A DNA stretch of 64,000 nt from Branchiostoma floridae (Eukaryota; Chordata; Leptocardii; Amphioxiformes; Branchiostomatidae): contig NC_049992.1 in the NCBI RefSeq assembly GCF_000003815.2, forward strand, positions 12,158,826 through 12,222,825, written 5' to 3'. The notes under the pieces are model-generated. The model searched no databases and had not been told where the DNA came from. It saw only the letters and a list, made by a program, of their open reading frames with translations. Shown in pieces: positions 2,191 through 32,100 of the stretch. Both the position numbers and the translations under genes were made by a program. Each line of letters begins with the position of its first letter. Position 1 is the stretch's first letter.

Positions 2191-5100
2191 GTGAGTACAA
2201 ATGTCTGTGTATGATCACTAGCTGTAGTGTATTTACATATTCAGCAGAGCAAAAAATACAACCATGATGTTGAGAATGGGCTAGCATTGTGGGGGTACAA
2301 AATTATGAAGAAATACAGTGGATGAGATATGAATGACTGATAATTTGCAGGATAAAATATCAGTAACACAACACAACACAAAATAGATAAATAGAACACA
2401 ACACAATGTACCACAAATTATGTTGCTTTAGATTGGAAATGAAAAAATGAAGATTAGAATTCTTACCACTTTCTACATTTCACAGTTTATTCTTTGTATG
2501 ATTGTTGTAATATCCTCGCAATTCAGGCTGCCTGGAGGAATATTATGTCTATTGATGAATAAACCAGTCTACAATTTCAGATGAAACACCAGACCCCCGA
2601 TGCCCACCGGAGTACAAGCGATTCCGCTCAGTTTGCTACCAGGCTGTTGATACCCAGCTGAGCTTTGATGAGGCAGAGAGACATTGTGTGGACAATGGAG
2701 CTGTCCTTGCCATGCCACATGACACTGAGACTGTTCAATTCTTGATTAGGTAAACTGAACTCCATGTTTTGTGATTTAGAAACTTGCAGTCAAAATCCTG
2801 CCTCTGGTTTATTTGTCCATTTGAACTTTGTTATTTACTGAAAACAGATTTAACAGATACATGTGCATGACTGATCATTTATGTGATACCTGTAGTTTAG
2901 TCATGAAAGAAACTACATGTACATGATTACTCCAAGTAGGCAATTGTAACAGAATTACATTAGAGGACCTTAATAAGTAATGGTCTAATATTGAACATAT
3001 TTCTAACTTTTACAATTTTCGTCATTTCCACAGCCTGAAAAATTCCGTGAATCCTAACTCATTGTTCTGGATTGGGCTGAGTGACCGTTTAGAACCGGGA
3101 GTTTTTAAGTGGAATGATGGTAATAGGTTACAACCCAGTGAAACTAACTGGCATCCAGGAGAACCTTCCATCACTTGGAGTGGTGAAAACTGTGTACTTT
3201 ACTTGTCGAATACTTCTTCCAATCTATGGGTTGACCAACATTGTACAACACAGCTTGCCAGTTACATCTGTGAAGTACCTGGTACGTACATCTAAATGTC
3301 CTTATACCCCCCTCACATTAGGCGCGATTCGATCAGACGACGAGTCTGCGAGCTCTAAATTACGAGGAGGCATGACCCTGACGGGGGAGCTCTGCCATTT
3401 CTTTGTCGGCATCAGGGTCATGCCTCCTTGTAAATTAGAGCTCGCAGACTCGTTGTCCGATCGAATCGCGCCTAATGTGAGGGGGGTATAAACAGTGATT
3501 TTAGTTTGATAATCATCTTCTAAATTAAACAATATCTTCCCCTGCTCTACATGAAATATTTGACATTGCCCTTAATGTCAGAGATAAAGTTACAGGTAAA
3601 TTTTTCACTTTGCTGTCAGCCACTGATTTTCATCAGACAAATGTTATGCAAAAGAATATAAGACAACTGTCTAACATTGCATTACTTTAAAAAAAAATTT
3701 CATCCATGAACTTAAAGCACTAAAACACCTCCTTTCCCCTTCAAGTACAAATTAAGTCCTAGTTGTACAAAGTTAACTTAATTTCTAGTTAGTAATACCC
3801 ATTTCTTCACAAAATCCTCCTTTTGTCCACAGCACACTGTCCGTTTATAACTGTAAGTGGTCTGGCTGGTGACAGTGCCAGCAGAATGGGGACTTACATG
3901 CTTACCAACATGGTCGCAGCCGATCGCCCAGTCTACAAACACTTGACACATGATCAGTACATTTATGCCACTTATGACTCTAACCGCCCCCGTCCCGCGT
4001 CATGGTACATTGGACAAGACGTTGGTGCTTTTCGTGGTAAGACACAACATACATTTTTTTGTAATCCTACCATTTTGCTAGCCTGTGTGGGTGCCATCTG
4101 ATTTCTACCAGGGCTCATTGTACTTGCTGCCCTAAAAAAGGGCAGAGAGTGCAAGGAGTCCGGTAGAAATCGGATATTTATTAATTAGCTACATTATGTA
4201 TATATTTAGCTTGAATAATGTTTAACAGGACATTGTCTTACTTACTATAGAATTGTCGTAAACCAAATAAGATAGAATATTCCTTGATTTTTTGTGAGAT
4301 ATTAAAGGAGCTAAGTAACATTGCAATATTTCTATAAAACAAAATGGTCATGGTAATTACATTTCACATGTAGATATTAATAATTGGTGTTATACTTGTG
4401 TTCTCTGAATGATGGACTCTAGCATTTAGTAAAAATCTTAAGATGGTGGCTTATAGTGCTTGCTTCTCTTACCTGCACACACATAATAAAGGGAAATTTC
4501 TTCCAAGACGCAACTCATCCTATTATCATTTGCACAAAACGGTGCCTAGATGCATTACCACCCAATGCTCTGTAAACTCATGAAATAAGTGCTTAAGTTC
4601 ATACTTAAACAGTTTGAAGTGAAAGTATTAGCATTGTATCACAGATTACCTTTCTGTTGTGCAATTCTATTATTCACTTCAAACTGTTTCAGTATGACAC
4701 TTATGAAGTTACATGGCATGATCTGACATTCTAGGAGCTGGACTTCCTTCAGCAGCTGCAGTCAAATTTGAAATCTAGACAATCATTAGGAAGTATATTG
4801 AATTATACTTTTCAGGCTGTCCGTTAGATTACACCCACACCCAAGGAAGATGTTGGCAGATCCACAGGGAGGCAGTGACCTACTCCACAGCATTAGCAAC
4901 CTGTGCTGCCGAGGGTGGTGTCCTCATGATGCCAACAAATTCTGAGCTGAATGGAGCACTAGAAACTCTAGTTAGGGATGAACGTGAAAGCTATTGGATT
5001 GGGTTGACGGATCCAGGGGATGGTGGGCGGTGGACTTGGACGGATGGTTCTGTGTTGGGAGATAGGGATTGTAATAAGTGGAGGTACAGTTGGTAACATC

Positions 5101-8100
5101 TATTATCATAATACCGGTACGTTTACGACGATTTCTCTAGCCATACTGATTTGACAAATTGTCAACGCATCATTTTCTCCAGTTACATGTTGTTGTTATA
5201 GGTTACCCTTGCCACTTCTTCTGTGTAACTTTTCTGCCACTCTTGTCCTGCTAAAAGCGTAATATTGTAATTGTAACACGCCGCGGAATTACACGGCGAA
5301 CGGGCGCGTGGTTGGGAGGGGGTACAAAATACCGGTAGGAAGAAACACGGCACAATTAACTGCCGCTATGTACATTTATACATCCTCTGATGTTCCTTCC
5401 TTTTCTGTCAGTAAATGCATAAAACATAAACCTGCATGAGCATACAAAATGTCATGAGAAAATGGACGTATACTGTCAAGAATTTTCATTTAACTTCTGT
5501 CCGTCACAACCGCTATGACGTAACACTTCACTGCTAGCGTAGATATAAAAATGGCGGGAAAATGGCTGCGTACGTTCAATTTTGCCCATTCAGTCGTAGA
5601 TCCGGGCTATTATGCAACGGTTCTTCACACTTTTACATGAGTTGTAGGTCACCAACAGAAATTCAAGATTGTTGTTGAATCATGTTCGTCTTGTGCCGTG
5701 AGCATGTGTAATTATGATCTATATAAATTTGGCAATGAATGTGACAGTGTGTTCGTCCCACGACGAGCTGCCTACCCCGAAATTAAAAAAAAAGTATACT
5801 GAAAACTTTTGGCCTTGTTGTCTTCGAATGCATTGTTATCGATGCTTTGTAAATGGTGTATTGGACACCTAGATGTCTGAAGTGTGCACAGCTCAGAAAT
5901 AACTATTGTTGCATGTGTAGATCTCTTTAAGTTCCAGTATTTTTAATCTACCGGTATAAGTCTTACTACCGGTATTATGCCAATGCATGTTACAGAGATA
6001 CGAGCCTGCAGTCTGGAAAGGGGGAGAACTACTGTGCTGCCATGATGTACGATTCGAGGCATTTAAACTGGCATGTCACAAGCTGTGAGAACACATTCAG
6101 GTTCATCTGTCAAATCAGTAAGTCACTCAATTTAAATGCAATTTTTTTTAACTGCTCATCATCAAGAGATATTGCCATTTTCTAAGTGTTGTGTGAAACA
6201 AGCTGAGCATGGATCATTCTACAGAAGAAAACAATTCATGAGAGTTCTCTTGCATTACATTGTAAATGAGCACCCAAAAATCTGAGTACTGTCACAGTGA
6301 CCATACATAGACATGTATTATTTGAGTTTATCTTAAATGAGTTACTTTTATCGAAGAAGGTTTGTAAGGTTTTATTATCAAATATTTCAATCAAACATAA
6401 AATTTTAGAAGTACAAACATCAGTTAGATTACTCAAATCACTAATCTTAGCTAATAAATTTTCCACAATACATTAACACAGTGAACACTACTTGTTGCAC
6501 ATGTACATTCTGCCAATGATATACATTGTATTGATCTTATAATTATTGTGCCATGTTTTGATCATGCTTGGATTTTGTGCAGGTACCCTTTATACAGGTG
6601 GAACAAGTGCCCACCCTGCCAAGAAAGTGTTTTGGTTCAGAAAAGTTGACTCTACCTGGACAATAATGCCTCAGCTTCAAGTTGACTGCCTTGGTATGGT
6701 TATTAGAATTTCACCTCACTATTTGACCAAGTGTTAAAGTAAACATGGTTTGATAGACATGCAATGTGATCTCTCATTATTCTGTTGGGTACCACATTTA
6801 GTGGAAATCGTGGCCTTTTCAAGAACGTCTGACTCTACGATACCTGACATATGCACTCCTCAAGGATCTTGCTGCATTGGTATATCTCTTTAGATAGACC
6901 ACAGTTTAAAATGCGACAGTCTGGTAACGACAGTCCTATGGGCCTGGCAGAATTATGGGAGTTGACATAATATAGGTAGATTTTTTTCCAAGTGATATTT
7001 CCAAAACTATTTGATATGTATTTTATGCCATTTTGAACTTGCATTTGTATCAAAGTTAGTGGTCATGTTTCAAAAGGTGCTTCATTACAACTTAAGCGTT
7101 AGCTGCACAATACCTCTGGGATCTTAACAATATTTGTGGCCTTTTCAATGCTTTTCATCAAGGGTTTCTTCTATGACATTTGATTTTATTTCTATCATTA
7201 CACTTTGATAGCAAACAAAATACAAGAACTTCAGTTTTGATGTGTCCCTAGCAAAGTAGATTTTAAATCACTTCATTCGTAAAATGTACAATTTTTGCTA
7301 AATATGTTTTGTATTAGCATATGATATAAGACTGACAGTTGTTTCATTTTTGCTCAATGTTCAGATGAAAACCCACTAGGCTTGGTGGCAGAGGTGGCAC
7401 CAAACATCACTGTCTCCTCTGTGTGGTCTGATGCAGAGTTCTGTCAACCTCATGAGAGTCAGCTAAACTCTCCCAGTGGCTGNNNNNNNNNNNNNNNNNN
7501 NNNNNNNNNNNNNNNNNNNNNNNNNNNNNNNNNNNNNNNNNNNNNNNNNNNNNNNNNNNNNNNNNNNNNNNNNNNNNNNNNNTCTTCTTATATTTTGGAA
7601 AAGTCTGCACAATAACAGAAAGGATATTAAGCAAATGAGCATGTGTTGTGTGCATGTGAGCATGTGTCAAGTATCAAGTCATGTTGAAGTATAAATGTAT
7701 TACAGGAACCTCCTTGAAATGTCAAATTTCTTAAATGTACAGTACTGAATATAGCAAATGAGTTTGGTGTTTCTCCATGGTTTGGATGGCTCTTTCCCTA
7801 GATACCAAATGAATCTGGCTTGTATGAACACATCTAAGATCAAAGTATATCTACATGTAGCCAGTAACTGAAGTTGGTTATCCATATGCAGAGTAGAGAC
7901 ATCAAAAAAGGTTTGTTCACAAGTGGCTTCATGTGTTTGTACAGGTGAATCTTTGGTCAGAAACAGCCATCAGTGGAGTCATCACCAAAGGCAGAGCGAA
8001 TGGTGCTCCCTATGAACGTGTAACAGCATACAAACTGCAGTATAGCTCTGATGGGACCACCTGGACTACTTGTACTGATGAATATGGTGAAGAAAAGGTA

Positions 8101-11100
8101 AAGAATTTTACATTGTCAGAAGTCTTGTGATTGCATTTACTGAGTATCTTTTGAATATCTGTTAAGTTTTTTTGTATGGCTGAGATGAATATCATGGCCA
8201 AAGTTGCTACCTCTGCCCAATATATCACATGGGTTGAGCCCCTAGGCCTTCTTTAGATAACTTTGTCTAGGTCCTCCTGACCTTTGTTGTAGGACAACAC
8301 ACGGTCTTGGGACTCTTGGCACTAACGTTTTCTATCATTTTAGATTTTCACAGATGACACTTCAGTGGAAGCAAATATTGGGGTAACCCAGTATCTTGAG
8401 GTGCCTGTTTTTGCGAGGTACGTCCGCATTTTACCACAGATGTGGAACACCCATATCAGCATGAGAGTGGATGTGCTGGGACTACTTCCTCAAGGTAAGC
8501 TGGATGGAATTTCATGCAGTTTTCTTTAAAAACATGGAAGCTGGGGTAGTAAAGACAATAATCTTTCAGCTATGGGGGGGTATCAGGTAGAATACTGATA
8601 GCAGCATATTGATGTTTCCATTGCAAATCTGAGCCAATATGATGGCTCCCCAGGTCTTCTTGTTTTCCTAATATGAAGGAAACAGGTGCTCAGATCTCAA
8701 GTAACCTCAAAACAAACAATCTGCCTTTTAATCACTTTTTGATCACTCTTTTGATAACAGTAGATTGTTTTTCTCCTTGGTGCTGAAAAGTTTGAGGTGG
8801 GAGCTGTCTGTGATTTTAGTGACATCCTGAGTCTTTCTTTGCATTTGCTTCAGAGACAACCATTCGGAGGTGTGGCAATCAAGCAACAGAGCTTTCCTGC
8901 CCTGAAAATATGGCCTTATCCATTGTGGATGCTAAATATGGTCGTCAAGCTGCAGTCCCAACATGTGGAGGATCAACCAGCAGCACAGATTGTCATGCTG
9001 CAGACAGCCTGCCTATTCTAAGGGGGATGTGTGAGGGTGAACAGCACTGCACAGTGGCGGCTAATGGTTACACCAACATCTTTGGCGATCCTTGTCCGGG
9101 GACACACAAATATCTCCAAACCACATACCAATGTGTCGAAAGTATGAATTTTTGTATCTTAAAGAGAGGCTCAAGCCAATAATCTTCCAGTAGATGTAAG
9201 ATGATTAATTCATGTTGCACTAAGAATTAATGTCTTACCGGGTAGTGCTAACTTTTTATAGTTTGCCACTAATGAAAGCCATAGAGTGACAGACAAGAAG
9301 TAACAAAGCCTATTCTTTCTTTTTATCATATTTTCTCATGTAGAGTATATGAAATGAAATTATCAGTATTTTTCAAAACCAAAATGTAATTAACTACTTT
9401 TAGGCTTCTGGTTTCCCAGCATGCTGTACTTACCATTTTGCAACATTATGATTCATTGTGACTGCAAATAAACAATAAACAAGATTCCACCTGGGAGTGT
9501 TGATATGTATGCATGAACTTCACTGAATGAGCCTATAGCATGATTTTGCAAAGGAGATTAGACTGCTTATTAAACACATTGATTTTCAAGGTCCTTTTGC
9601 ATTACCAATGGCAGGTTGGAGTGAATGGTCAGTCTGGTCGGACTGTACCGTCTACTGCGGCAGCGTCGGGGAGCAGTCTCGTGTGCGTACATGTGAGAGT
9701 GTGCTGTCGTGTAAGGGGCTGGACTTACAGACACGGGATTGTGGAGACATTCCATGTGCTGGTTTGTGTTGGCATAAGCCACTCCTGTCTATCTTGTTCC
9801 TTACTTAGTCCAAGTCATTGTTATCAATATGTTGATAAAGTTTAGACATCTAGGTAATAAGATATGCCAAATAGTAATTACTCAAGCAATTGGATATGAT
9901 TTTGGATATGGTCAGACATTTCAGATAACATCCATTATCTTTCGTTGTGACACTGACAGTGTCAGTGACAGTGATAGATAATGAATGATATCTAAAATGT
10001 CTGACGGTGTCCAAAATCATATCCAGTTCAGGGCTCAAAATCCATTTTTGGGAGTGCACCCAGCACCCAAAAATTTTTTGGTGCACCACTTAAGTTTAAG
10101 TAATAACCTAATAATAAAACTTAGTTACAAGCTATCAAATTCTTAAATGACAGACATTTTATTATCTTTCCAACACTTAGATGTCAAGAATATGACGTAT
10201 ATTAGTATACTTTGATATCTTTACATACATAAACCTAAGAAAATATTTGGGTGCGCCCTGTGCACCCACAGAAAACAATTGGGTGCACAGCTCTAATTTT
10301 GGGTGCACCTGGGTGCACATGCACCCAGTATTTTGAGCCCTATAGTTGCTTGTAATGAGTAATTACTATTTGCTGTATTTTTATCAGTAGTCTCAGAATG
10401 ACCAAAATGTTAAGTGCTTTCCAAGTTCACACTCTAAAGATGGGTGCAAGACAATTGACTCAGGTCACAAAAACAGGTCAGGTCTTCAAAGACTTATTTC
10501 TGGGTGACTGCCTAATTGTTGGAATGTCTTATTACATGTACTAGATGCTTACATTGACACTGGTCAGCATTGGTGCAAGGAAAATTGACTGCAAGACATT
10601 GCATGGATGCCATTAACCCTCTCTGACTGATCTATGGATATTCCTTACAACAGCAGGTGCCAGTAATTGGAATATGAAGGGTGCATACAGTCATCTTCTA
10701 TTCATAAAGCAGATAATAGATCACAGTTTTCATCATATTAAGCAGACAATATCTGAATCAGTAAGCGTATCATATAATCTGTGGCCAGTCAATTTGCAAG
10801 GAAGGGGTCCCTCCTCTAATTATGAACACCCTGAGATGATGTTGCCTTCAATGTACACTAACTGCTTTTTCTCCAATCTTTGTGATCTTTTTTTTTTCTG
10901 ACAGCATGGAGAGAGTGGAATCCATGGAGTCCGTGTTCCATCACTTGTGGTGATGTTGGCAGGAGGAGCAGAAGCCGATCTTGTCATGGCAAGGGAGGCT
11001 GTGTTGGCAGCTCCAGGGAACATGAGATGTGTAACATGGGGCGTTGTGCAGGTATAAGTCTTTTAAACAATGAAAAATCAACATAGTTTACTGACAAAAT

Positions 11101-14100
11101 AAAACTAACAGCTTATCACCACTGGCTTTACTGACTGGGTCTGTACCATTTAAAGGTCATAGAAATTGGCTTAGTAATCTGATTTCTTGTTCCAGTGTGT
11201 GTCATAGTTATTGGGTGACTATTTAGGGCTGGCATTGAGGGCATGTTTTGTACCAGTAGAATACAGTCAAGACATTTTTAATAATAACCTGTATAAACTA
11301 CATGACTGGTAGCAAACAAAGCATCATTTGAAGACAGCATATGCACAGGAAAAAATCATTTTAACTGATAACATATACTAGTCTGTACATTCTATGGTTG
11401 GTAGGGCAGAAAACATATTAAAATAATGTTGTTTGCCATTCATGTGTATTACAGATGCTGTAATGGGTGACTGTGGCTTTGACAAGGAGAACTTGTGTGG
11501 ATACACCCAAGAACGCGGGGATGATGCAGACCTGGTCCGAGAGTACTATAATTCTAACCCATATATCCAAGGCAAGATCTGGAACATTGTTATCTATCTA
11601 TAAGGACAATGTCTAGATACCTATTTCTTACTTTGTTGTTAAACCATCTGGGTGCGTTATGTATTTAACAACTGTTTTTGCCACCTTACAGGATATGTTG
11701 TATACCCCCCTGCACCTGATGTCATGGTCCGACTCACGTCACCTTTAGTGTCGTACCACACATCAAGGTGTCTTAAGTTTGAGTATCGCAGAAGGCATGG
11801 TTACCACCAATTTGCAGATACTTGTAGTGTGACAGTTTACATAAGGTGAGATGATAAGGTCTTTATTGGAGATTGTTTTACCTATATTTAGGCTAGGTTT
11901 TCTTCCAGCTTCTTTATGTGAAGTCATACTTCAATTTCTTATCTGTTGTCTTGAGATTTCAAACGTCTTGAATAGTAACTTGTACTTGATAAACTTTCTC
12001 AGCCAGGTCAATGCTGGGGTAAACTGCATGGAGCATTCTGTAGTCCATTAACTTTACGTTATCTGGATTAATATGCTGTTACTGTAGAATAAAGCCTTTA
12101 TGCCATTCAATAACACAATAAAATTTTTCGAAGAGCGGTTTAATAAATCCTTTTTTGTGGCAGATTTGATGGAAGTATAGATCACCAGTATGCTCTGTGG
12201 AAGTCATCTCCTGTCATACCAGCAGACAAGTGGTCCACGGCATCTGTTGATATCTGTGCATTGAAACACTTTGTGGTAAGCAAGACTAGTTTTGTGAAGG
12301 AAAAATGTGAAAGGATAATAGATATAGCGCTAGTTCACCTTTATCCGCGGGTTGACCTTTATCCGTTGTCTTTAAAAACAGCACATTTATGAGTATTAGG
12401 TCTACAAACTGTGGTTTCAAATTTGCAATATTTTCAAAATGTTCAAATTTGAAACCACCATCTGTCGACTTCATATCCTTAAAAACGCTTTTTTTACAAA
12501 CAACAGATATAGATCACTCTTGGATAAAGGTGAACTAGCGTTACATTCGAGTGTTGAAATTGAGGATTTAAAAGCACATTATACATCTTATGTTTTGCTA
12601 AGCCTTTGTCAGAACCCTGATAAGTCAAGGAATGATAAAAATGCTATGAACTGTGTTGACTATGTACACATGTACTTGTACAATGTAGTTGTACTTGTCT
12701 AAACTATGTAAGTAGCTGTTGTACAATGTAGTTGTAATTGTCTAAGCTATGTAAGTAGCTGTATACTGTATTCAAATTGTTTTATGTAGCATCACAGCAT
12801 GTGCTTATAATAGTTCGTTATTTTTTTTGTTATTTCCCATGTCTAGGTTATGTTTGAAATATTTGGAAATGTCATGTTGGACAATATCAAGTTCTCCAGC
12901 AGCAAATGCAGTGGTGAGTAATAATAACAACTATGCTCATATCATGATAGATGTTACTTGTATCCTGTCCTCTTGATAACATTGTAATGTGTATGCATTT
13001 CTCATGGATACCATTGCATCTATTGGATATGCATGCTGTTGTGAGCAAGATATACAAATCTTACTCTGAAGTTCATGATTAACCTTGTGGGAAGGTATAT
13101 CAGACATTAAGATAGCTTTAAAGTTGAGTCAAGTGTGGGGAATTTTCAGTAAATGGAATAGTTATGTGATATTGATGGACAAATAGACTATGATACAGTT
13201 CAAGGGCATTAGATCTTTGTCAAACAGTACAGTTCTTACTAATGGCATGTGAATTCATCTACCCTTATTTGTATGTCTAAATTTGTATGGAACAGAATTT
13301 GCTTACTGCCTTGAATGTTTAAGCAACAGATAGAGTGTCATTATTTGTAGAAGGCACATGAAATTTATGACAATATCATAAAAATTTTCACAATCTTTAC
13401 TTTTCCATCATTCTCAGGATGTACCACACGAGACTACTCCTTTCCATGTCCAGTTGCTTCTGGCTGGTTTTTGGCCCGAGATGAGATGTGTGCGCCACCT
13501 AGCAGTTATACAGGGGGCTGCAGCACCTCTAACTTACATGCACTCTCAGCTCTGGAGAAGAAGAATTTGGAGGATGTGTGTGGAGTAAGATGGCCATGTG
13601 CAGGTGTGTCTCAGAAAAATGATCCAAAATGTTGAAACATGAAAGACTGCACTGTCAAAATGGTGTGAAAGCTTGCTTTTTGATGTCCAAAGTGCCACTT
13701 GACAAAAGTGTGACAGTAACATTCATTCACATAATTTCACCAGGTGCCATTATACCGCCACTTCAAAAAACGTGGTATTCCAGGCCTTCTCACGATTGTC
13801 TTATAAGATGTTGAGCACCTAAATATCTGAATTGTATTACATTTAGGATATTAACATTCAGTGTTCAAGACGATCTTGGGAAGACCTCTATTTTTTAGGT
13901 GGCGGTATTATAGCACCTGGTAGAATTATGATAGTCGATGTTATATCATCCAAATGAATTTTGTTCCTCCAGTACATTCTAAAATCAGTATTAAAATTGT
14001 GTTAGCATTTTCAGTTTCATCAACTGTTTACCTGAGTTTCTTTTTATAAAAACAACAACACTGAAATTGCATTCTCCATAATAAAGGTCTTCAATACTAA

Positions 14101-17100
14101 CTTCTTTTGAGCCTTTTTACAAAAATACATATAGAATTTAATTGTTACCAACTACATTCAAATGATATATGTTTATTTCCCCAATGGCTACTTTGCTGTA
14201 CACTTAACAGCTAATTACTGTAAATGCAGAAATGTTCGCGGTTTTCGCGTCGACCACTTTACCGCGAAATTAAATCCACCGCGAAAATTTTTCTATTAAG
14301 GTATTAGATTGCAGTAGATGGTGTTACCGCGAAATTAAATCCACCGCGAAAAATCATTTTTCCCGCTACCGCGAAATTAAATCCCCGCGAATTTAAATGC
14401 ATTTACAGTATATGTTTTCTGTTCAGTCTAGATTTGAATGATTTTATAAAGCTAATGATCATATAATTTCCAGATCATTGCCATGCATGTGACGGCACAC
14501 AGGACATCACAGAGCCATCTGGGTGTTTGCTGAGCCCAAACTATCCTTACAACTATTTCCAGGTAAATGTACAGAAATTCATTGTGGTACTGAAAGTCAT
14601 ATCAATTGGTAACAAATTTTTGCTATGTATGTTGTGTATATGTGTCCTATAAATTATCACCACATGGGAAAAGCAAATGATCAGGATATACATGTATCAG
14701 GAGTTAAGGGAACCATTAGGCAACAATTTTGTGTTTGGACTTAGAATGTTTTAGAAAATTAGGTAAATCCTCTCTTTTTGGTAGATCTGGAGCAGATCAG
14801 TAACATATTTACTCCTTGAGCTAAATTTGTAGGTTTGTGATATTAAGGGTAAGAATCTGGTTTATATTTTGGTGGCATCCCATTTGTGGTACTGCATATA
14901 CCATTAATGCCTAGCAAAATGCTTCTATAATTGTTTACTTCTAACATGTTGACACCAAACCATATTTTTGTCTCAGAAAAGTCTACAGAACCTTCCACAG
15001 AAATTGCTTCAAATATGTAATTCTAAACTGTCATTGCAAACAGGAAACACTGTGTGCTTGGAAGATCATTGTTGAGAAGAACAAGATTGTGAGTCTTTCA
15101 GTCACATCCATAACACTGGAGGAACATCCTGACTGCATCAAAGACTCCCTGACCTTTTACGACGGAGAAGGAGATGATGCCCCCGTCTTACGTCGACTGT
15201 GTGGCAGTGCTACTCCCAGGACCTTCTACTCCACAGGAAATACTGTGTTTGTGAAGTTTCAGTCCAACTTCAATCAAGAGTTTGAAGGCTTTGTGGTTAC
15301 TTACTCTACTGGTCAGCCTCATCGTAAGTGAAGCACTACTGCCAGTCATTTTACATATCCATGATATAAATTTTAGTTTCAAGGGGCATCTTGACCCAAT
15401 CCTATCATCACCCTTTGATTGAGATAGACAACAGCAACTTGAGTACCTCTCCTTGGTGCTGAAATGAGAGGTGTTACTTTAAAACTTCCCACAACTACTA
15501 CATGCAGATTGCAGAAAATAATACATCACTGATAAACATACCTTTCTCAATAATAGTAGTTGTATGGTAGTGTAGAATACAGTACATTAGGTTCAGTTGG
15601 GTAGAAGTGTTGATTCCAGTTTGGGCCACTCTTCAATTTAATTTACTGACATCATTGGTCCCTTTGGTTAGACCAATGCTCTCTTTAGATATATTCATGT
15701 GTAAAAATGTAACCAATGGTGTTAACCACCACTTTGCATCCCATACGGAAGCAACAATGGCTTTCTGATTTTTAGATCAACAGGTTAATTTTGTGAATTT
15801 GAAAACATCATTTGTGGGATACATGCCTCACAACATTTTCACAGTTTTGCCAGTCCTATTTACAGCATTCCTTTTTTCTTACAGGATGCTGGGGTAGACT
15901 GGTTGGTGTAAGTTGGATGAATTTAAGAGACCCAATAATCACTGCATCAGACAAATCTAGCCTGCACTTTGGGGAGCACCAATCAGAGGAAAGTTGCCAG
16001 GAAGCCTGTATGCAGGTCAAAAGCTGCTGGGGTTATTCCTTAGAACTGACCAGCAACAACTGCTATGGACTGCTGAATACAGATGACGAAAGGCATTACC
16101 GTTTTGATGCTGAGCAAGACCATGTCATCAGTGGATTCAGACAACCCTGTGATGGTATGGAGACATCCTTGAGCACATGCTCATTGATTTCTATAAATGG
16201 CTCTTCAAGAGCATTTCGTTGTAACGTGCAACACATTTTAGTATGAGAGAACCTTAATGGTCTTTTTTGTCACAAACTTGTTTAATCTTATGTAATGACA
16301 AAAGAATTTCATGTAACATAGCCACTTGTTAAAGAAGGAAGAAAAGGACTATGAAATAAATGATTAGACTGACTGATTACTGCTGCATAGTTCTAAGACA
16401 CCTCTTGAAACAGACAATCCTGTGAGTTTTGCTTGGTATCCAAGATCAATTTTAATTCAGAAAGCAAAGAGAGATCATGCCAAAGTGTCACATTCGAAAA
16501 ATGTCTTTGTTGCGGCTGTTGTCAACTGTCAATATACATGTAGTCAATTTTAATTCAGCCTATTCTGACCTTTTCAGTGCAATATGATAGGCGCATAGAC
16601 AAGAGTGTTGTTTTTGGCCTGGTGCCTGTCGGAGGAAGTGACATCAGGCCAGACACTATCTTCTTGGGAGAATTCCAAAGTGAAGCAGCCTGCGCATATG
16701 CATGTTCATTAGAGGCCTCTTGTTTGGTAAGTTGGTGGTTTTGACTTGGATGTACCAATTATCAACTGAGATGCAAAAACAACATTCAAAGTTTCAAAAT
16801 CAATCCATTCATTGTACATTCATGAATGAATTCAAAAGAAAATATTACAGCTTTTTTTTTTATATCAAGTTTGACCAAAAGTAAATAAAAAAAGGCCCGT
16901 TGTGAAAAAAATGCTAATAGTGATATAGATTGATTTAGGATTATCTAGCTCAAGTTGAATTTTATCAACAATGATTGTTTTATCCCTCTAGCTATAACCA
17001 TTGTATTTGCTTGTTCATCTCATCAGGCATATACATGGATTACTAAAAGCAACATGGAACACATGTTGCAAAAGTGCTATGGGAGGAATGTAGCCAATCC

Positions 17101-20100
17101 TGTTTTAGAGCAGACAAGAGGCAAATACTCTGGTATAAAGGTGCAGCAATCAGGTAAGTTTGACTACCTTGACCCACCTACAATTTTGCTCATTTGCCTT
17201 TCATTGATTGCTATCAAAAATGAAAGTTTCTTCTTCTTTACCTTCATCTTTTTCTGGGGACAGAACACCTAGCAGGAGAGCATGTCTTTTTATCAAGGCT
17301 TCTGGGAAATAAGATGGCTTTGATCATGATAATAGTTTGGTCAGATGGCCATAAAGACCAGACATCCTTTTCTATTTAACAACATCTTATGTCATCCTGA
17401 CCCAGCCATAGGACAGATTGGGACTGAAATTCAGATCCATTAATTAGTTTAAGATTTTTTGTTTACACTTTCTCATCTACATGTAACAGCAGTATGAGAT
17501 ATAGCTTCAGTCAATGTGTTTGATTTGTTTTGTTCAACAGTTTTAACAAAGCCCACAGACCTTGCTGTCCAGACAGTCACACCCAACAAAATCAGCATCT
17601 TATTGGTGACAACTCACGAAGTGCGCATCTCCTGCATCCCTAAGTGCAACAACGTAACAGTGGGTGAGATCAATGGAGTGACTATTGCAACTTTCAATGA
17701 GCTGCAGCAGGCAACAAATTCCACCATATATGTGCGAGCTTTTGAGAGGTTCGTTGAGAGTGAAGCATCGGTAGTGACAGCCACCACCAGTAAGTATTTA
17801 CCGTATTTATACTTTTGATCTTTAGCTAGAAGAAGTGACTATCAATATCTCCTTTTGTTTTATACACATCATACCACAATATACAATTTTCTTTGCTTTC
17901 TAGTGTCTCGTGTAAACAATAATCTTACAAATGTAAGATTTTACATGCATCAGAGAAAATCATTTTCATGATCTATAGGAGACTTAGAATATCATTACCT
18001 CAAATCTTCAACATTTAACAATACAGATGTTTATATATACTAGAGCCCCTTTAATTCCTTGTAAACTTTAGAGGACATCTCTGATAATTTTTTGTTTGCT
18101 TTATCTTACAGCGTTTGCTGCTCCAAACATTACACTCACAAGGAGTGCTCAAGACACCCTTAACATCAAATGGCAAAGGGAGACTTTTTCATGGGAAGAG
18201 ACTGCCATTTCCATGGAAATTACCTGTCAGCAAAAGAGACATGGACATTTTGAGGTTACTATTGAGATAGATTTACTTATAACTTCCTTTCATCATAAGA
18301 TTTTCTGCAAGTCTAATAATACACCCAATTTTGTGCCGCATCGTCTTTCTACGTCCAAGAAATAATGATCTTCGCAAATTTTGTTATAAAGTCATTGTCG
18401 GTACTTTTCTGGTGTTGCAAAGCCAACTCAACATTAGTGCTGTGAAAAATGAAGTGAATAACAACAGAAAGTACCAATATTTGAGTGGTAAAAGAAAGTA
18501 ATTTAGTGGAATTAATCAACCAAGAATTTGGTGTATGTAATGATGTTTGTGTTACAATATATTAAGATATTTTAAGTGTACCTTGAAATAACACGATCTA
18601 GATAAATGTAGATAATGGAAGACAAAAATCATTGTCATGATTATCTATGGCTTGAATAGGATTGGAAGCAATGTGGAGTACTGCTGGTAAATGATGCTGA
18701 TGGTGAAGTGGCAATGGCCGGGCTGTTTCAAGGAATGGACTACACATTCAGTGTGGAGAGGAGAATTGGAGATACATTAAGAGGAGAGACTGCAGAAGTA
18801 TCATCTTATGTTGGTAAGATCTTTGAGAAAAAATCAATAGAGGAGCTTTTTAGTCCACCATCAATGTAGAAATCAGTTCACTGTCCATAATATTATCTAT
18901 TGTTTAGTATGAGAACTTCACCAACTCCAACTATGGAAATTAAAAAATGTGTATGGTCGAAGTGTATATGTATATGTATATTTGTGCTTTCTTCCTTACA
19001 GGTCTCATTTCACCTACAAGTCTATCAGCACTCACAATTGAACCCCAGACTATCACCATACGTTGGAGTCTGGACAGGGATGAAGGACCTGTCATTCCAA
19101 CAGTGGCAGTTAACTGTGCACCAACTTGTGTGGTAAGTGAATTTATCCTTCAATAAACACATGCTGATATTAGTTTGAAAGCTTGACTCTGTTGGTTGAA
19201 GTCATTTACTGAAATCTCTAACACAAAAGAAATTGGCAATAATTTTACCAAACAGCACCACCAATTGGATATGGATTGAACCAATTTGATCATAGGAACA
19301 CATGTTTCCTTCAAGCTGACAGTCGCTGCTGTTTAACGGTCAAAACGTCTAATTTCTTTGTCTTTAGATTACACATAGAAATATGTCTTCATGAATATAA
19401 CTATACCAGTGTTTTGAATTACTGCGTGCTTCAGGATGTGGAATTGCAATTGAAGGTATGTGTGATTTTGTCCTTTTCTACAACAACAAGGAAGTCATCC
19501 TATTTTGGAAATTCTGTTTCAGGTTCAGCTACTTGATGGGCTATCTGCAGAACTGAGTGGTCTGCAGGCTGGTACCGATTATTTCATCCTTGTCTGGACA
19601 GAGTTCAACGGCCTACAGAGTGATTTAGTAACCCTGACAGTAACAACCTGTAAGTACATATCATTTGGTTCTTTGTACTTATCCTGTCCTTGGTACTGAA
19701 CACCTTCCATGTTGTTCTGCTCTCGGTGCTGAATACCTTAAGCATCATTACATGTCTGTATGCCCTCAGAACTGGATACCTTCCATATTGTTCTGTCCTG
19801 GGTGCTGAACACCTTCCATATTGTTCTGTCCTTGGTGCTTAATACCTTCTATTTTGCTATATCCTCTATGTCGAACACCTTCCATATTGCCCTCTGTGTT
19901 GAATACGTTTCATATTGCCCTGTCCTTGATACTGAATATCTTTCACATTGTGCTGTCCTTAGCGTTAGATATCTTCCATTTTGTCATGAGCTGATTACTT
20001 CCACACTGTTATTCTTGGTGTTGAGTTCCTTCCATATAATCCTGTCCTTGGTGCTGAATATCGTTATGCCCTTCATGTTGGATAACTTCCATATTGGGGC

Positions 20101-23100
20101 TGAATACCTCTACACTTTGGGAAAATATAAGAAATGAATAATGAGGGATGGAGGGAGTGTACATGATATTCCTATTGGTGGTGGTAAATACCTTTCATGG
20201 TGGAAGGTCATTGATACTTCATGCCTTCAGAACAACCTTGATCCTGATACAAATTTCCACTGACAGTGATCTGCTGTAAGTGCTGATAATTTTCAATTCA
20301 CATCTTACATCTCACTAGGTACTTTTCATTTTCGACACATGTGATACCTCATTGTACACATCCATAAACAGTTACAATATGAATAATTAATTATTATACT
20401 GGCCAATATTGTATTTATGTAGAATGATTCTTATGGTAAAGATAATATATGAACTTTGCACTTCCAGTGATCCCACCGCTATCAGGTCTGCAGGCACCAG
20501 AACTGTCATCATCCAGTGTAAAACTCACTTGGGACAGCCCAGCTGTACAGCCAGATTTCTACCAGATAACCTATAAGTAAGGCACTATCTAATATCATCC
20601 ACCTGTCTTTGTTTGTGTATGAGATTAGTATAAAGTCATGCTTTCAGGTAAATCCCACAAAACTAGTCAAACTATATGTACGCCCTCAGAGCTTGACACC
20701 TTCTATATTGTTCTATCCTTGGTGCTGAATACAAAAATTACTTACTGTTTATGAAATAGTTCTTGTCATATTCACTTTCTTACACGTCTACACAGCATGC
20801 AAAATCTCATCAGACTGAAGAAAGTAAAGTAATGAAAAGCTGTTTTCCACAGGCAGACCTATGGAGGAGTTGCTAAGAACGAGACTATAGGTGCCAGTGA
20901 AACACAATATGAGCTGAATGGATTTACCAACAAAAATCAACGATACAAATTTGAATTAGCTCCTGTTATCCATGGAAAAAAGGGTGATGTCTTCACACTT
21001 ACAGTCTGCTTGGGTATGCAAACTTATTTGTCCTTTCAGGTTCAGGTTGTTCATATATGGAAATAGTGTGGTTGAAGATTCTTGCAAATTTAAGGAATAT
21101 AGTATAACATATTTTAATCTACTTTCATAATGCAATGCACCTGATCTTTTTGATAATGGTGGACATGTGTTGTCAGTTTGTGTTAGTTTCATCAAGTCTT
21201 GGTTTTCATAAAGGTATCAATTTTGATCTTATTGGGTTCGAGTTTCTAATTAACATGATTTTTAAGATCAGATACAAACAAGTTGGTTTTGATTGACAGC
21301 TGAAACTGCAAAGCTGAAGGACTTTCAAGTTGGTCATGCCACTGCAACTGAGATTTCTGTCACGTGGACATCACCCGCTTGTATCGACGTCCGCAGCTAT
21401 GACCTTTGTGCCATCCCCTTGGATGAAACAGATGAGGGTACGGTTTGCCGACAGGTTTGTACTATCGACAATACTAACCTGCATCAATCATTTTGAGGAA
21501 TTTCATACTTTAGGACTATAAGTTTTGCATTTATATTAATGTGTAAGAGTAACGGTAATTACTGTGATGATTGATTTGTGCTCCATTTTGTTGGAAGGTT
21601 GATCCAAAAAGCCCCTCTGCAGTCATAGAAGATCTGGTGCCAGGAACCCTGTACTATGTCAACCTTACGGCACAGATTAGCTTTGTGGTTGGTGGAACTC
21701 CAACTGATACTATCAGTGATGCTATATCACAGGCTACAGGTTGGTTTTGTTACATTTCAAAAGAGAGTTATCAACTTATCACTTGTTGGGTCAATACTGA
21801 CTGTCAATATTTCTTTGTATGCTGATCGATAATGAATGATTTGTAATTGAACCTGTCGCAATGATCATTCAAAAATGAGTTGCCTTTTCAAAGGTAACAA
21901 TGATCAATTGTCTTCGATACCTTGGACTGTTACTAAATGCACAAAAAATGTATAATGTAAAGACACACATGTCAAATATTTTACATTCTTCAGTTCCAGA
22001 ACCACCAACAGAATTCCAGGTCACCAACTTCACTAGCAGAACTGTCTCCCTATCCTGGCATCGCCATGGGAACAAGACAAACAGCTTGGACAACCATGGA
22101 AAGAAGACAAACAACTCTTCTGCTGTGTACACTGTCAGCTACTACAAGATTGTTGGGCTGAACGGGACTGAGCCACACAGATTGTCAGTAGGATGGCTTA
22201 GCACAGTTAACACATCAGCAGTGGTGGAAGGTCTTACTGATAATACAGAGTACCTCATAACAGTGATGACATCAGTCAGTGGGATGCACAGTGGAGAAGT
22301 GTCTCTGATAATTCAAACAGGTATAACGTTAATTAGTAACTTATTCCTTTGTGTGCAATTCTTTACATATAGATTATGACATGAAGTTATTTGGTGTTAC
22401 TACCCTAGTAGTATTATCCAGTATTTGATTTATCTGCTTCGTTGGTCCCTAACATGCATGGGTGGGCAGCAGTCGACTAGTCTTCACACCATGCTTCCAG
22501 GCAGCCCTGTCATCTGAGTTCACACTGGCATGGCCGCACACATTGATGTCTTTCTTAACACACTCCTTTCAAGATTTCCTTGGACTATATTACCTCTTTT
22601 GCCAGGTAACTGCAATTTGAGAAAGGACTCACCCTGTTGGCATTGCCAAATAAAAGTTTATTTTATTTGTTTATTCATTTTATCTACATTTATCAATTGA
22701 GCATTATACAAAAAGCACATTAATTTTGCTTACTATATATACGTTAGGTCTTCTGCTCAAGGTAACATAAAACAACAAATAATAGTCAAAATCGGCAAAA
22801 AGAACTTGCTTATTTATACAACACTAACATACATGTATAACAGAGATTGACAATAAAATAAATGTTTGAAAAAAAATGTTTGAAATTTTTCTGTAGCTCC
22901 TGAGGCAGAGTGGAGTGAGTGGCAGTTTGTCGGCAGCTGTTCTAAGTCCTGTGGTGAGGGAAGACAGGTGAAGAGGAGGTTGTGTCTCCTGCAAGATGGA
23001 CAGCATGTACAGAAGTGTGAGGGGAGGAACCAGACTCTGATGGATGTAGAAGAGGATATATCGTCCTGCAATAATATATCTTGTCCAGGTAAGTATACAA

Positions 23101-26100
23101 ATCCTTGTCTTCTTGAGGTCATTTTACATGTAGATCAGTCCTACCCAGGGAAAACTTGTCTTCATGTGCATCACTGTAGCATACATATTTTGATGTACTA
23201 GAGTACCAGACTTACAAGTTCTCCAAGGCTCTCAAAGACTTCACAACTGTATGTTACCTGTAGGAAAAATTTCTTTCTATATGGCATGTAAAGGAAAGGA
23301 ACAAGCTTTCAACTTTTAATACACTGTACTTTTAATGACTTCAAGAGCTGCTCCATTTTCAAGATCTTGCAGCCCATCAGGAGGGGAGTTAATTTATTTT
23401 AGATTTCTGTGCCCCTGTGTAACTATGATGATTATATCATGGCCTCACCTCTCCCATCTCAGAGTAGTTAACCCTACTGAATGTTTATGTTCATAGTACA
23501 TGGAGGGTGGTCATCCTGGTCAAACTTCACAAGCTGCTCAGCAACCTGTAATGGAGGCAGCCAGACACGGAGCCGTAACTGTTCCAACCCTATCCCCCGA
23601 CATGGTGGTCGAACCTGTGCAGGGCAACAGTTACAGACTGCTCAGTGCAACCTACAGAGTTGTCCAGGTTTACTCATTTACTAGTATCATTTAGCAAATG
23701 CTACTCATTGTCCACATTCAAAAGAATCATAATTGTCTAATTTATGATTTGAAATGATATCAACCAATAATCTCCAAGCAGATCCTACGGTGCCCTAAGA
23801 TAGTATCAAAGCTGGCCAAGGAGTGTAGCCGACCAAGGGAGTCAAACGGGCACCTACGGAAAGTTTGATACTATACATTACGCACCGTGGATCTGGTTCG
23901 AGATTAATCAACCAAGTGCAGATCAGAACGCAGTGGTCAGTGATTTGATTTAGTTTTCATTTTCTGTTAATCCATCGAACAAAACTTTATTGACAAGCTG
24001 ATGGCAAAGCACAAAAAGTTTAATTGTATCTTAAGTCAGTGTGTGGCCTTTTCAATCCAGACTAAGATTGTTAGCGTTGACTTATCACAGAAGTTAACAA
24101 TCTTTTTTGCTCTCCCTGAAGTGCCGGTGATATCAGCGTGGATGTCCTGGTCTGCCTTTGACGACTGTTCTGAGACCTGTGGTGGTGGACTACAGATCAG
24201 GAGAAGACAGTGCAATGGTTCATCATGTGTTGGAGAGGCTGAGGAAATAAGAGAGTGTCATGAGGAGCCTTGTCCAGGTTCAGATGTTTGAAAATTTGTT
24301 TTTAGTTGTTAAGGTTGTGTGATATTTGTAACATCAAAGCTCTTTAGTAACATTATGTAATGATAGATATTCTGACTGTGGCGAAAGAGAGAGAAGACTT
24401 AATGAAAAAGAATAATTGACAAGACATTTTTGTGTCTCATATCTAAAACGGTAACATAGGAAATTTTGTGACATCATGCAACAACAGCTTGCAATGTCAT
24501 ACTTTCACAAGTCAGCATAAGTTCCTCTGTTGCTTTGAATTCTCCTTTCGACTGTGGTCAAAATCTTCTTTACAGAACTATGCAGATAAAAAAAAATTAC
24601 TAAATTAATATCACAATGTATGAAACTTTTGAAAACAGTTGACATATTTCTTCCACTCTGCAGCTAATGGTACATGTATTAAGACCAATAAAATTTCTAT
24701 TTTTAAAAGTCCATGGAGGATGGTCCATCTGGAGTCTATTCACTGCCTGCACGGTGACCTGTGGTCCTGGTAACCAGACCAGAACACGCAACTGTACCAA
24801 CCCTGAACCTGCACTGGGAGGCAATAGCTGTCCTGGAGATGATGATGGACATGGACATGAAACACAGATCAGGGATTGCTTTTTGAAAGAGTGCCCTGGT
24901 ATGTTCTTAAAAAATCTTCCCTTATGCAATGTAGATTAAGATAAAGGCTGTGTATTATATACAATGTAGTCTGTCTGGAACTTTGCAGGAATAAGATTTC
25001 ACAAATGATGTGCAAGAATCTATGATCTGTAAGACTGGCTTCGATGTAATGATAATTATAATGCATTGAGTAAAATTGCATGTGAAGATGGTCCAATCTT
25101 ACTTTTCTTATTAGCTTTTGAATTTTGGCAACATATTTCACTAAAAGATGTGGTAGATTTATACCTGTCCAGTACAATGAAAATAGTTTATTTTGACCTT
25201 AATGTATAATACCCAACCTTGTTCTACAGCCTTGCCTCCACCACCTACATGGTCTGAATGGTCTCCATTTGGCCCCTGTTCTGTGAGCTGTGATAATGGC
25301 ACTCGGCAGAGGCATCGAAATTGTTCATCGGAAAACTGTGAGGGACCTGACATAGATGTCCAACAGTGTTTCCCATACCCCTGCTATGCAAGTAGGTTTC
25401 ACAACCCTCTTATTGATTGTCTTGTTGTAACGTCTGTTGTAACAGTACTGTACTTTGCATAATTTCCCCATCACAAATTATATATTATGCATGCATCTTA
25501 ATGTTATTTTGCAATGTGCATTCTCTATAGCCCCTCCCGTAGATGGCATGTGGTCAGCTTGGTCGGAGTACAGTCAGTGTACGGTAACTTGTGGAGGAGG
25601 AGTGATGCAACGTACACGGGAATGTGCGGACCCTTCACCGACACACGGTGGCAGGCCATGTGAGGGAGACAGAGAGGGTCTCGGGATGGAGGTCCAGTAT
25701 CTTGCCTGCAATCTAGCAGCCTGCAACGCATCAAGGCCTCCTCCTGACAATGTTGGAAGTTGGTGTCCTTTTCTTTTACCATAATTACTACTGGAAGGGA
25801 TAATATGTGCATGTAGCTTTAGATATTGGAATACACAGCCTCGGCAGTTGCTAACATGATCTTGGAAATACAACATTATCTTGGAAACAGAATAGCCACA
25901 CTGAACGCTTAGAAAACCTAACAATATTAAGAATACATAAAGTTTTGCTTAGCAGGAAACTTTGAATAGGATTATACTTATAGCCTTCAATTTCATGGGT
26001 AATCTAACTAAAATCCTGTTGTTACGTTGACAGTGTGCCCAACAGTGATAGGAACAAACAATCAGGCCTGGCCAGAAGCTGCTGCTGGGGCCGTACAAAC

Positions 26101-29100: not shown

Positions 29101-32100
29101 GCATATCTATGGGAATCGGACATTGAACGGCCCTGTCTTGAGTACCGTCATCTATCCTCCACCAAAAGAGGCACTGCTCAATCCTGTTACCATCAAGATA
29201 CACCACACAAAAGTGAGGCTTTTTGGCATACAGTGTATATGATCATGTTGATTTACATAGAGGCACTTATTTTTCCTTTGCATTTATGCAGAATTTTCTA
29301 CATATTAATTTGAGCCTCCTTGCAAACTGGTCATCTCAGAAAGATTACATTTTTTGTCAGTTTTTTACCTCCTTCTTTGTTGTATTCAGAGCTTGATTAC
29401 ATTTGCACTCATGTCATAATTTTTTAAGATTTATTTTTCTCCACTTGTTGTAGATGGCGAAGAACCCGCTATGTGTGTACTTGGACTATGAAGACCAAAA
29501 TCGGTATGTACAATATTCCATGTAGTTGAACATCATTTCCCCTTGTGTGCTATTAAAGCTATCGTTTGAGGCAGTGACAACAGTCCCATTTTGAGGTTAT
29601 TGAAGCTGTTATGGACAGGTGTACTTTCTCTGTGGTTATGAAGAAATCATGGCCAACCAATTTTCAAAGTCTGCACAAGTTACTATTCACATCAGAGGCA
29701 TATTTCACAAAAGCTACCTACTACATTTATAGGAATCATGAAATGTTTTGTTTCTATTCAAGATGCATACTCAATGCATGTGTCATTATTACACAGTTTA
29801 TTCAACCCATCTGGGTGTGAGGTGAGGGAGAGGAAGAAGTCCTACACCATCTGCCAGTGTTTCCACCTCACAGCGTTTGCTGTCTTAACAGAACTGGTCA
29901 CACCAGTAAGGGCTTTCCTGCATTTACAACACTCACGTAGTCCAAGATATTATTTTGCAGTCTTCTCGTTTTCTTGTGATCGTCAATGTTAGTTTTACAA
30001 CATTTTTACATATTTAATCGCCGATATTTTTTTCTTACAGGAACCAAAAGTCATGTTACCGACTACTAACCTTCCATGGATTGGCCAGGTTGTTGCCATG
30101 GCAACACTGAGCATTACACTGCTGATCTTCCTATGGCTCAGGTATATTGTTGCCTACACAGTTCCTGACAGTTTGACAGTTGTCTTTACTTCATTTTAAA
30201 ATGTAACAGGGCAAAATCAAACAATAGCTAGGAGCGAAACCTAACATGGAGAAATCTTTTGTTAATAATATTTTTTTTCAATTTCAGAACTCACCTGGAT
30301 ACATCTGGTTACCTATTCCTACTCCTCACAGTCTGTCTGTTGGCCATTGAGGTCACCATCTTTGTAGGGATGGAAAAAACAGACAAATGGGTAAGTCAAA
30401 CTGTTTTGGAATGATGCTTACAAAAAATTATAACAATGGTATCATTGCATGCATGCAACAAAGCATAGTGTTGTTCAATAGGGTTTTACATTCAATCTGC
30501 ATTAACATCAATTTGACATTGATTAGATTAAATTACATGTAATTGATGGAATAGACAAGATAGGGCCATGATGGGTAAAATATGGCTTAAAAAATTAAAT
30601 GTCATGTAAGAAGTTAGTCATAATATGAAAAACCTTGATATTAAATGATACTAAAACATATCGAAAGTTTAAAAAAAGGTTTGTCAGGAGAGTAGTCTGA
30701 ATTGAGTTACAGCACAGTATGCTGCCTCGCAAATTGAACTCAAAGTTGCTGGCTATGGGACTTTTCCAACTATGACACGAGTGCAGGCATCAGCCCTCCC
30801 CAAATGGTCGAGGGCCTCTTGTGCCATCTTTGCACACTGCCAAGCCTTTCTCTGGTGTCCCACCTGTGCCATTAGGCCAGGGCCCTGCTAGAGCCTTAAT
30901 CAGCCTTGTCTCAGACCTTCCCAGGGGCAAGGAGGTAAATAAGTACCTGTAGGTAACCCCTAAAGCGAGCATTCCCGGCAAACCATGTCCGTTAGATGAC
31001 ATCTTTTCTCATATATATAGCACACTTTTTGTGTCAGTTTTGTTTGTGGTTTCTGTTATGTCATTAAAGAAAATTTTGAAATAAGTCATGAGAAACTGAT
31101 CTTTTTGCTTTCATTATTGGTGTTTCCTTTGTTAATATTTTAACCATGGCCAGAACTAGTTTACGTTTCTTAAGTAATGAGAAAAATGCAAAATTACTGG
31201 TATTGTTAGCTCTGCATAGCTAATGAGGTAGCAAAGCATGCTGGGAATGGTTTCAGATTGCACCTTGAATTAAAGGTGGCACTCATCAATAATACTTAAC
31301 CCTCCCAGAATGACTCTTGCCATGTCTGTGCATTGATACAGGCCTTAGAAGATTAAGCGAACTTCAGGTATACAGTAGTGATAGAATGTAAACTGACACC
31401 ATTCCTCCACAGTATGGCCGGTACATCTGCCTGGCTGTGTCTGGCCTCCTGCACTTCCTCCTGCTGGCTGTGTTCATGTGGATGTTGGCGAGGGTGCTGC
31501 AGCTCTACCGAGACGCTAGTCTGGCCGAGGGCCCGGCACCCTGGGAGAAGTACTGCATTCTGGGTATCCTCCTGCCACTTGCTGCTGCTGCTGCACCTGT
31601 CATCTTAAATTATGATGATTACAAGGACATGTCCATGTGAGTAACCTTAAACCACTGAAAACGACTTACATGGTTCTCAAGCAACAACGACCAGCAGCCA
31701 AACATACTTACATTGCTTTGACTTAATAGATTTACAGTAGTGTTTTAATGCTCCATTTTTATGATGTATTGGTAATATCACTGTGACAATGTATGCCTCT
31801 CTTCACTGTTAATTGTTAGAGTTTTTTCTTTGAATAGCTGCTGGCTGCCAAAGACTCACTATATGGAGTATGCCTTTATCGCACCCGCAAGTTTTATCCT
31901 GATGGTAAGTTTGAAAGTATGAACCAGTTGTCAGTATTTACTTTCATCCTAAACTTTAAGTAAAACATATTTCTATGCAATGTCAATGGCAGCTCTGATA
32001 AGATGATTTAATCATTAAGGATGTCAAGGTGTGGACAAGTGGTTCAAAAATCTTTTTCACTTTGATGCCTACAATTTTCGTCACAGTTGTGAAGAAGATT

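Follow-up and report, generated by a model that had tools for sequence, protein, structure and literature searches.

The exon at 13418..13603 in a stretch of lancelet (Branchiostoma floridae) DNA raises the question of whether an animal cell-surface receptor carries a CPW-WPC domain and, if so, how the domain came to be there. In the literature, this module is treated as characteristic of parasites of the malaria type and of the algae related to them. The stretch analysed, called the window here, is 64,000 nucleotides long. A preliminary description, made from the letters of the DNA, had proposed a symmetrical (phase 1-1) exon of 62 codons, lying between MAM and CUB domains of an adhesion GPCR, and had likened its peptide to CPW-WPC.

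The exon and its neighbours

The exon lies on the plus strand at 13418..13603, and its borders are exactly those that had been proposed. It is 186 bp long and bounded by AG and GT (acceptor ctcag/GATGTA, donor TGCAG/gtgtgt; splicing is read from the sequence only), with phase-1 introns flanking it on both sides. It is open in the phase-1 frame, as set by the preceding exon, and codes for a domain of approximately 62 residues. Frame 1, counted from the first base of the exon, contains a stop and was discarded as the wrong frame. The peptide is 63 residues long when the junction codon is included; its last residue is a G if the frame is read into the intron and a D after joining to the next exon. 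It has six cysteines, at positions 2, 11, 25, 35, 55, and 61. The four motifs listed in the preliminary description (C-P-x-x-x-G-W, C-A-P-P, Y-x-G-G-C, and W-P-C) were all found in this peptide. The assignment of the interval as a CPW-WPC domain exon draws on the splice sites and the open frame together with the Pfam PF09717 and NCBIfam TIGR01492 models. The exon has a GC content of 0.51 and a GC3 of 0.44. For nine further coding exons in the receptor gene, the ranges are 0.45–0.54 for GC and 0.40–0.54 for GC3, and both values lie within them.

Eight exons from 10905 to 15323, joined by hand at splice sites chosen from the DNA alone, make one open frame that reads TSP1-MAM-CPW_WPC-CUB. All four domains score above their Pfam cut-offs in the joined peptide: TSP1 with 37.3 bits, MAM with 39.5 bits, CPW_WPC with 53.0 bits, and CUB with 89.3 bits. 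The TSP1 domain exon (10905..11051, plus strand) lies upstream of MAM. The MAM domain (11455..12913, plus strand) is spread over four exons at 11455-11571, 11692-11845, 12164-12275, and 12847-12913; it covers profile positions 1–158 of 158 and ends in phase 1. The CUB domain (14474..15323, plus strand) starts in phase 1 and is made of two exons at 14474-14562 and 15044-15323. The CPW-WPC exon thus sits where it had been placed, and it joins MAM and CUB in frame. The first MAM intron (11571-11692), as joined, has a GC-AG splice pair, with the GC donor CCAAG/gcaaga at the end of the first MAM exon.

Family membership of the exon peptide

The exon peptide matches the Pfam CPW_WPC model (PF09717) at a score of 58.1 bits (E 1.8e-15), where the cut-off is 23, and the match spans profile positions 2–58 of 59. 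The comparison with this model that the preliminary description had called for is therefore significant, and TIGR01492 concurs with 46 bits against a cut-off of 35.6 (profile positions 3–61 of 62). Adding flanking residues to the exon peptide gave 45.5 bits with TIGR01492. The preliminary description had also raised the prospect of a clear match to another cysteine-rich family; no Pfam-A family besides PF09717 was returned for the exon peptide, even with the limit set at E 10. The peptide was also shuffled with the cysteines held fixed, and nine of the ten shuffles were scanned. None of these nine matched CPW_WPC, which shows that the match of the exon rests on more than the spacing of its cysteines; one shuffle gave a sub-threshold match to Prokineticin. 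Given the E value and the shuffles, a chance origin of the match is very unlikely. The predicted identity of the exon peptide as CPW-WPC is firm. A search of PDB sequences with the exon peptide gave no match up to E 10. An AlphaFold2 single-sequence model of the peptide was poor (mean pLDDT 43.3), and a helix at residues 45–55 was its sole listed element.

Residues were swapped singly, and the Pfam score was followed for 18 of the 20 variants prepared. Among the cysteines, the loss was 8.2 bits for C11, 8.3 for C25, 5.0 for C35, 7.0 for C55, and 4.0 for C61. Losses of similar size were seen on changing the aromatic residues W59 (8.9 bits), Y7 (6.7), W17 (6.0), and Y31 (5.5), and the prolines P12 and P60 cost 4.5 and 3.1 bits, respectively. 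Changes at T4, R21, S38, and G34 shifted the score by between 0 and +0.4 bits. Changes at F9 and F18 raised it by 0.9 and 1.0 bits; neither of these residues is on a conserved aromatic position. By substitution, four of the six aromatic residues tested (Y7, W17, Y31, and W59) occupy conserved positions of the profile. TIGR01492 concurs with Pfam for the six cysteines, W17, and Y31, and its score of 46 bits fell by 5.6–7.2 bits with each cysteine-to-serine change at positions 11, 25, 35, 55, and 61.

The first cysteine behaves differently from the other five. The C2S change caused no loss in the Pfam score and a loss of 0.5 bit with TIGR01492. A cysteine put at position 3, by comparison, raised the Pfam score by 3.3 bits to 61.4 bits, with the match now reaching profile position 1. 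This gain indicates that the first cysteine of the family has a counterpart in the exon, one residue earlier. It was the sole probe to raise the score among ten cysteine insertions, which sampled some of the positions and seven of which altered several residues together, so that a gain could be masked. The alignment of all six cysteines to the profile, put forward as support for family membership, therefore holds strictly for five (11, 25, 35, 55, and 61), and C2 is displaced by one residue. The spacing from CP to W in the exon peptide is CPx4W, and that in the name motif of the CPW-WPC family is CPxxW. The domain has been described with six conserved aromatic positions (PMC11285972).

Copies, known relatives, and origin of the module

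We searched the genome (513.4 Mb in 431 contigs) with both the profile and the peptide. Of the seven candidates scored with the PF09717 profile, one matched with an E value of 0.001 or lower. The exon peptide returned itself and one weak match on contig C3, with an E value of 1.43, 33% identity, and one internal stop, which we counted as noise. By eye, the matched stretch on that contig keeps the cysteines corresponding to 25 and 35 but not those at 11 and 55, and it is without WPC. In the 513-Mb genome, no significant copy was found besides the CPW-WPC exon. Scans whose reach is limited to close relatives gave none in bacterial and archaeal contigs (from 195 pattern matches) and none in viral contigs (from 9 pattern matches).

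In Plasmodium, eight CPW-WPC proteins have been described, with five repeats each and four to six cysteines per repeat, and two of the proteins are at the ookinete surface (PMC3637178). Another account counts nine members and locates several of them at the crystalloid, remarking on the disagreement; it gives the function of the module as unknown (PMC7487766). Chromerids also possess CPW-WPC proteins (PMC4501334). In the dinoflagellate Effrenium voratum, the protein CAJ1387072 has two CPW-WPC domains together with F5/8C and SRCR domains (PMC11285972).

The lancelet exon shares with the family (PF09717/TIGR01492/IPR006387) its length, five in-register cysteines, the conserved Y, W, Y, W, and P, and the C-terminal WPC. 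It differs in the one-residue shift of the first cysteine and in its CPx4W spacing, and it belongs to an animal seven-transmembrane (7TM) receptor rather than to a parasite protein. The receptor has a single CPW-WPC domain, whereas the Plasmodium proteins have five each (PMC3637178). The combination of CPW-WPC with F5/8C-type domains is common to the lancelet gene and CAJ1387072 (PMC11285972); when the two are compared by domain description, the lancelet gene adds TSP1, MAM, CUB, lectins, GPS, and 7TM. The adhesion GPCRs of amphioxus described by Nordstrom et al. in 2008 likewise carry many shuffled modules in their extracellular parts, C-type lectin, CUB, and discoidin among them, and the term 'CPW' is absent from the main text of that paper (PMC2246102). 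Within the part of the literature covered, no work joining CPW-WPC with amphioxus or Nematostella was found. Animal members of the family may already be recorded by automatic annotation at InterPro or NCBI.

The presence of CPW-WPC on its own exon in an animal receptor gene means that the module seems not to be restricted to malaria-type parasites and their algal relatives. This extension of its range into an animal adhesion GPCR is the main interest of the locus. The copy in the animal receptor provides an outgroup for tracing the origin of CPW-WPC, and the lancelet receptor is a non-parasite protein in which the fold and the ligand of the module can be studied. The repertoire of modules in adhesion GPCRs is also enlarged.

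Cysteine spacing can converge among small disulphide-rich domains, and the lancelet peptide deviates from the profile in its first cysteine and in its CP-to-W spacing. Both points fit an unrelated animal cysteine-rich module that resembles the CPW-WPC profile by accident. We consider such convergence highly improbable, as two models match (58 and 46 bits), the non-cysteine residues Y7, P12, W17, Y31, W59, and P60 add 3–9 bits each, the cysteines alone did not suffice for a match in any of the nine shuffles, and no other Pfam family appears at E 10. Contamination or mis-assembly, by which parasite or symbiont DNA would have been built into the animal contig, is so improbable as to be negligible. 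Marine animals are commonly parasitised by alveolates, but the exon is on a 21.8-Mb contig inside an animal-type gene, and the open frame runs from MAM through CPW-WPC to CUB across introns. The GC and GC3 of the exon are within the range of the other exons of the gene, and hence nothing indicates that it is a parasite contaminant or was recently inserted from a foreign source; the sequence evidence is strongly opposed to this explanation.

The reading that we prefer is that the exon very probably codes for one genuine CPW-WPC domain, a disulphide-stabilised extracellular module that was inserted by phase-1 exon shuffling between MAM and CUB of a very large adhesion GPCR. Lateral passage of CPW-WPC from an alveolate lineage to an animal one or the reverse, as opposed to deep inheritance or an animal module that had escaped notice, is compatible with this reading, and we regard it as possible rather than probable. 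It is favoured by the single significant copy in the genome and by two points from the literature. A lateral origin has been proposed for LCCL, a module of apicomplexan proteins that is also reported from metazoans (PMC10892792), and the dinoflagellate protein combines CPW-WPC with F5/8C and SRCR (PMC11285972), F5/8C being present in the animal gene too. The composition of the exon, which is without sign of recent entry, argues against it. As a tentative suggestion, CPW-WPC could be an extracellular module common to animals and alveolates rather than an alveolate invention. It might have passed between them, perhaps with F5/8C-like modules that build parasite transmission proteins, and in animals it would then survive in giant adhesion receptors as a shuffled exon that is seldom met.

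The host receptor and its predicted mode of action

The plus strand of the window from 1 to 38700 was scanned exon by exon with Pfam, and all domains given here are on that strand. At the 5' end, two parts of C-type lectin domains were identified at 3032..3274 (Lectin_C, 41.7 bits) and 4872..5081 (43.3 bits). A partial F5/8 type C (discoidin) domain at 7936..8091 is the better of two stretches in an 80.2-bit F5_F8_type_C match. A SUEL-type galactose/rhamnose lectin domain follows at 8892..9134 (SUEL_Lectin, 63.7 bits), and a TSP1 domain at 9620..9757 (TSP_1, 24.4 bits; cut-off 21.6). Downstream of CUB, a further TSP1 array at 22897..25676 was matched by TSP_1 in three frames and six stretches; its outer limits were set partly by eye. 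Matches to FN3 in the receptor gene were below the Pfam cut-off. The GPS motif, with the cleavage signature C-x-C-F-H-L-T, is at 29804..29887 (30.1 bits; cut-off 22.5). The 7TM region and the cytoplasmic tail exons, assigned from 7tm_2 and the DNA, have approximate limits of 30042..33116. Exon pieces picked by hand downstream of the GPS and linked by X match 7tm_2 with 53.3 bits (cut-off 20.6) over profile positions 7–182 of 250. The order of a GPS before a 7tm_2 match agrees with the adhesion GPCR proposed at the outset, and on this predicted architecture the host is a very large adhesion GPCR gene of Branchiostoma floridae.

F5/8C coding near the left edge of the window suggests that the receptor gene begins outside it. 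In the 10 kb upstream of the window, the same strand holds exons of F5/8C and IgGFc_binding, which probably form the 5' portion of the receptor gene. Runs of N at 983-1235 (253 bases) and 7483-7582 (100 bases) are near F5/8C exons, and exons may thus be missing there.

Receptors of the adhesion GPCR class are generally considered to act through cleavage at the GPS and exposure of a tethered agonist. In the lancelet receptor, phase-1 exon shuffling would have placed CPW-WPC between MAM and CUB. The six cysteines of the module would pair into three disulphides, around which it would fold. CPW-WPC would then be one among the numerous units of a long N-terminal fragment that serve in adhesion or ligand contact, together with the lectin, discoidin, TSP1, MAM, and CUB domains. 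The visible HLT signature suggests that the receptor is cleaved at HL/T within the GPS. Binding of a ligand, or a pull on the N-terminal fragment, could expose the tethered agonist (TAFAVL...), and the 7TM part would be activated.

A cysteine-rich exon at 15885-16154 appears PAN/WSC-like by eye; Pfam gave no match for it at E 0.01. Searched against the genome, this exon returned itself alone, with no second copy. A TM exon gave three matches from 19 candidates, which were itself and two remote sequences with 30% and 38% identity. With these two exons as queries, no near paralog of the receptor gene was found in the genome.

Repeats were also observed in the window. The non-coding sequence at 3302-3491 is a near-perfect inverted repeat with 80-nt arms that are 95% complementary and a 30-nt loop, and it looks like a small MITE-type element. 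Degenerate tandem repeat arrays with units of 28–33 bp are found at 19684-19959 and 37690-39037.
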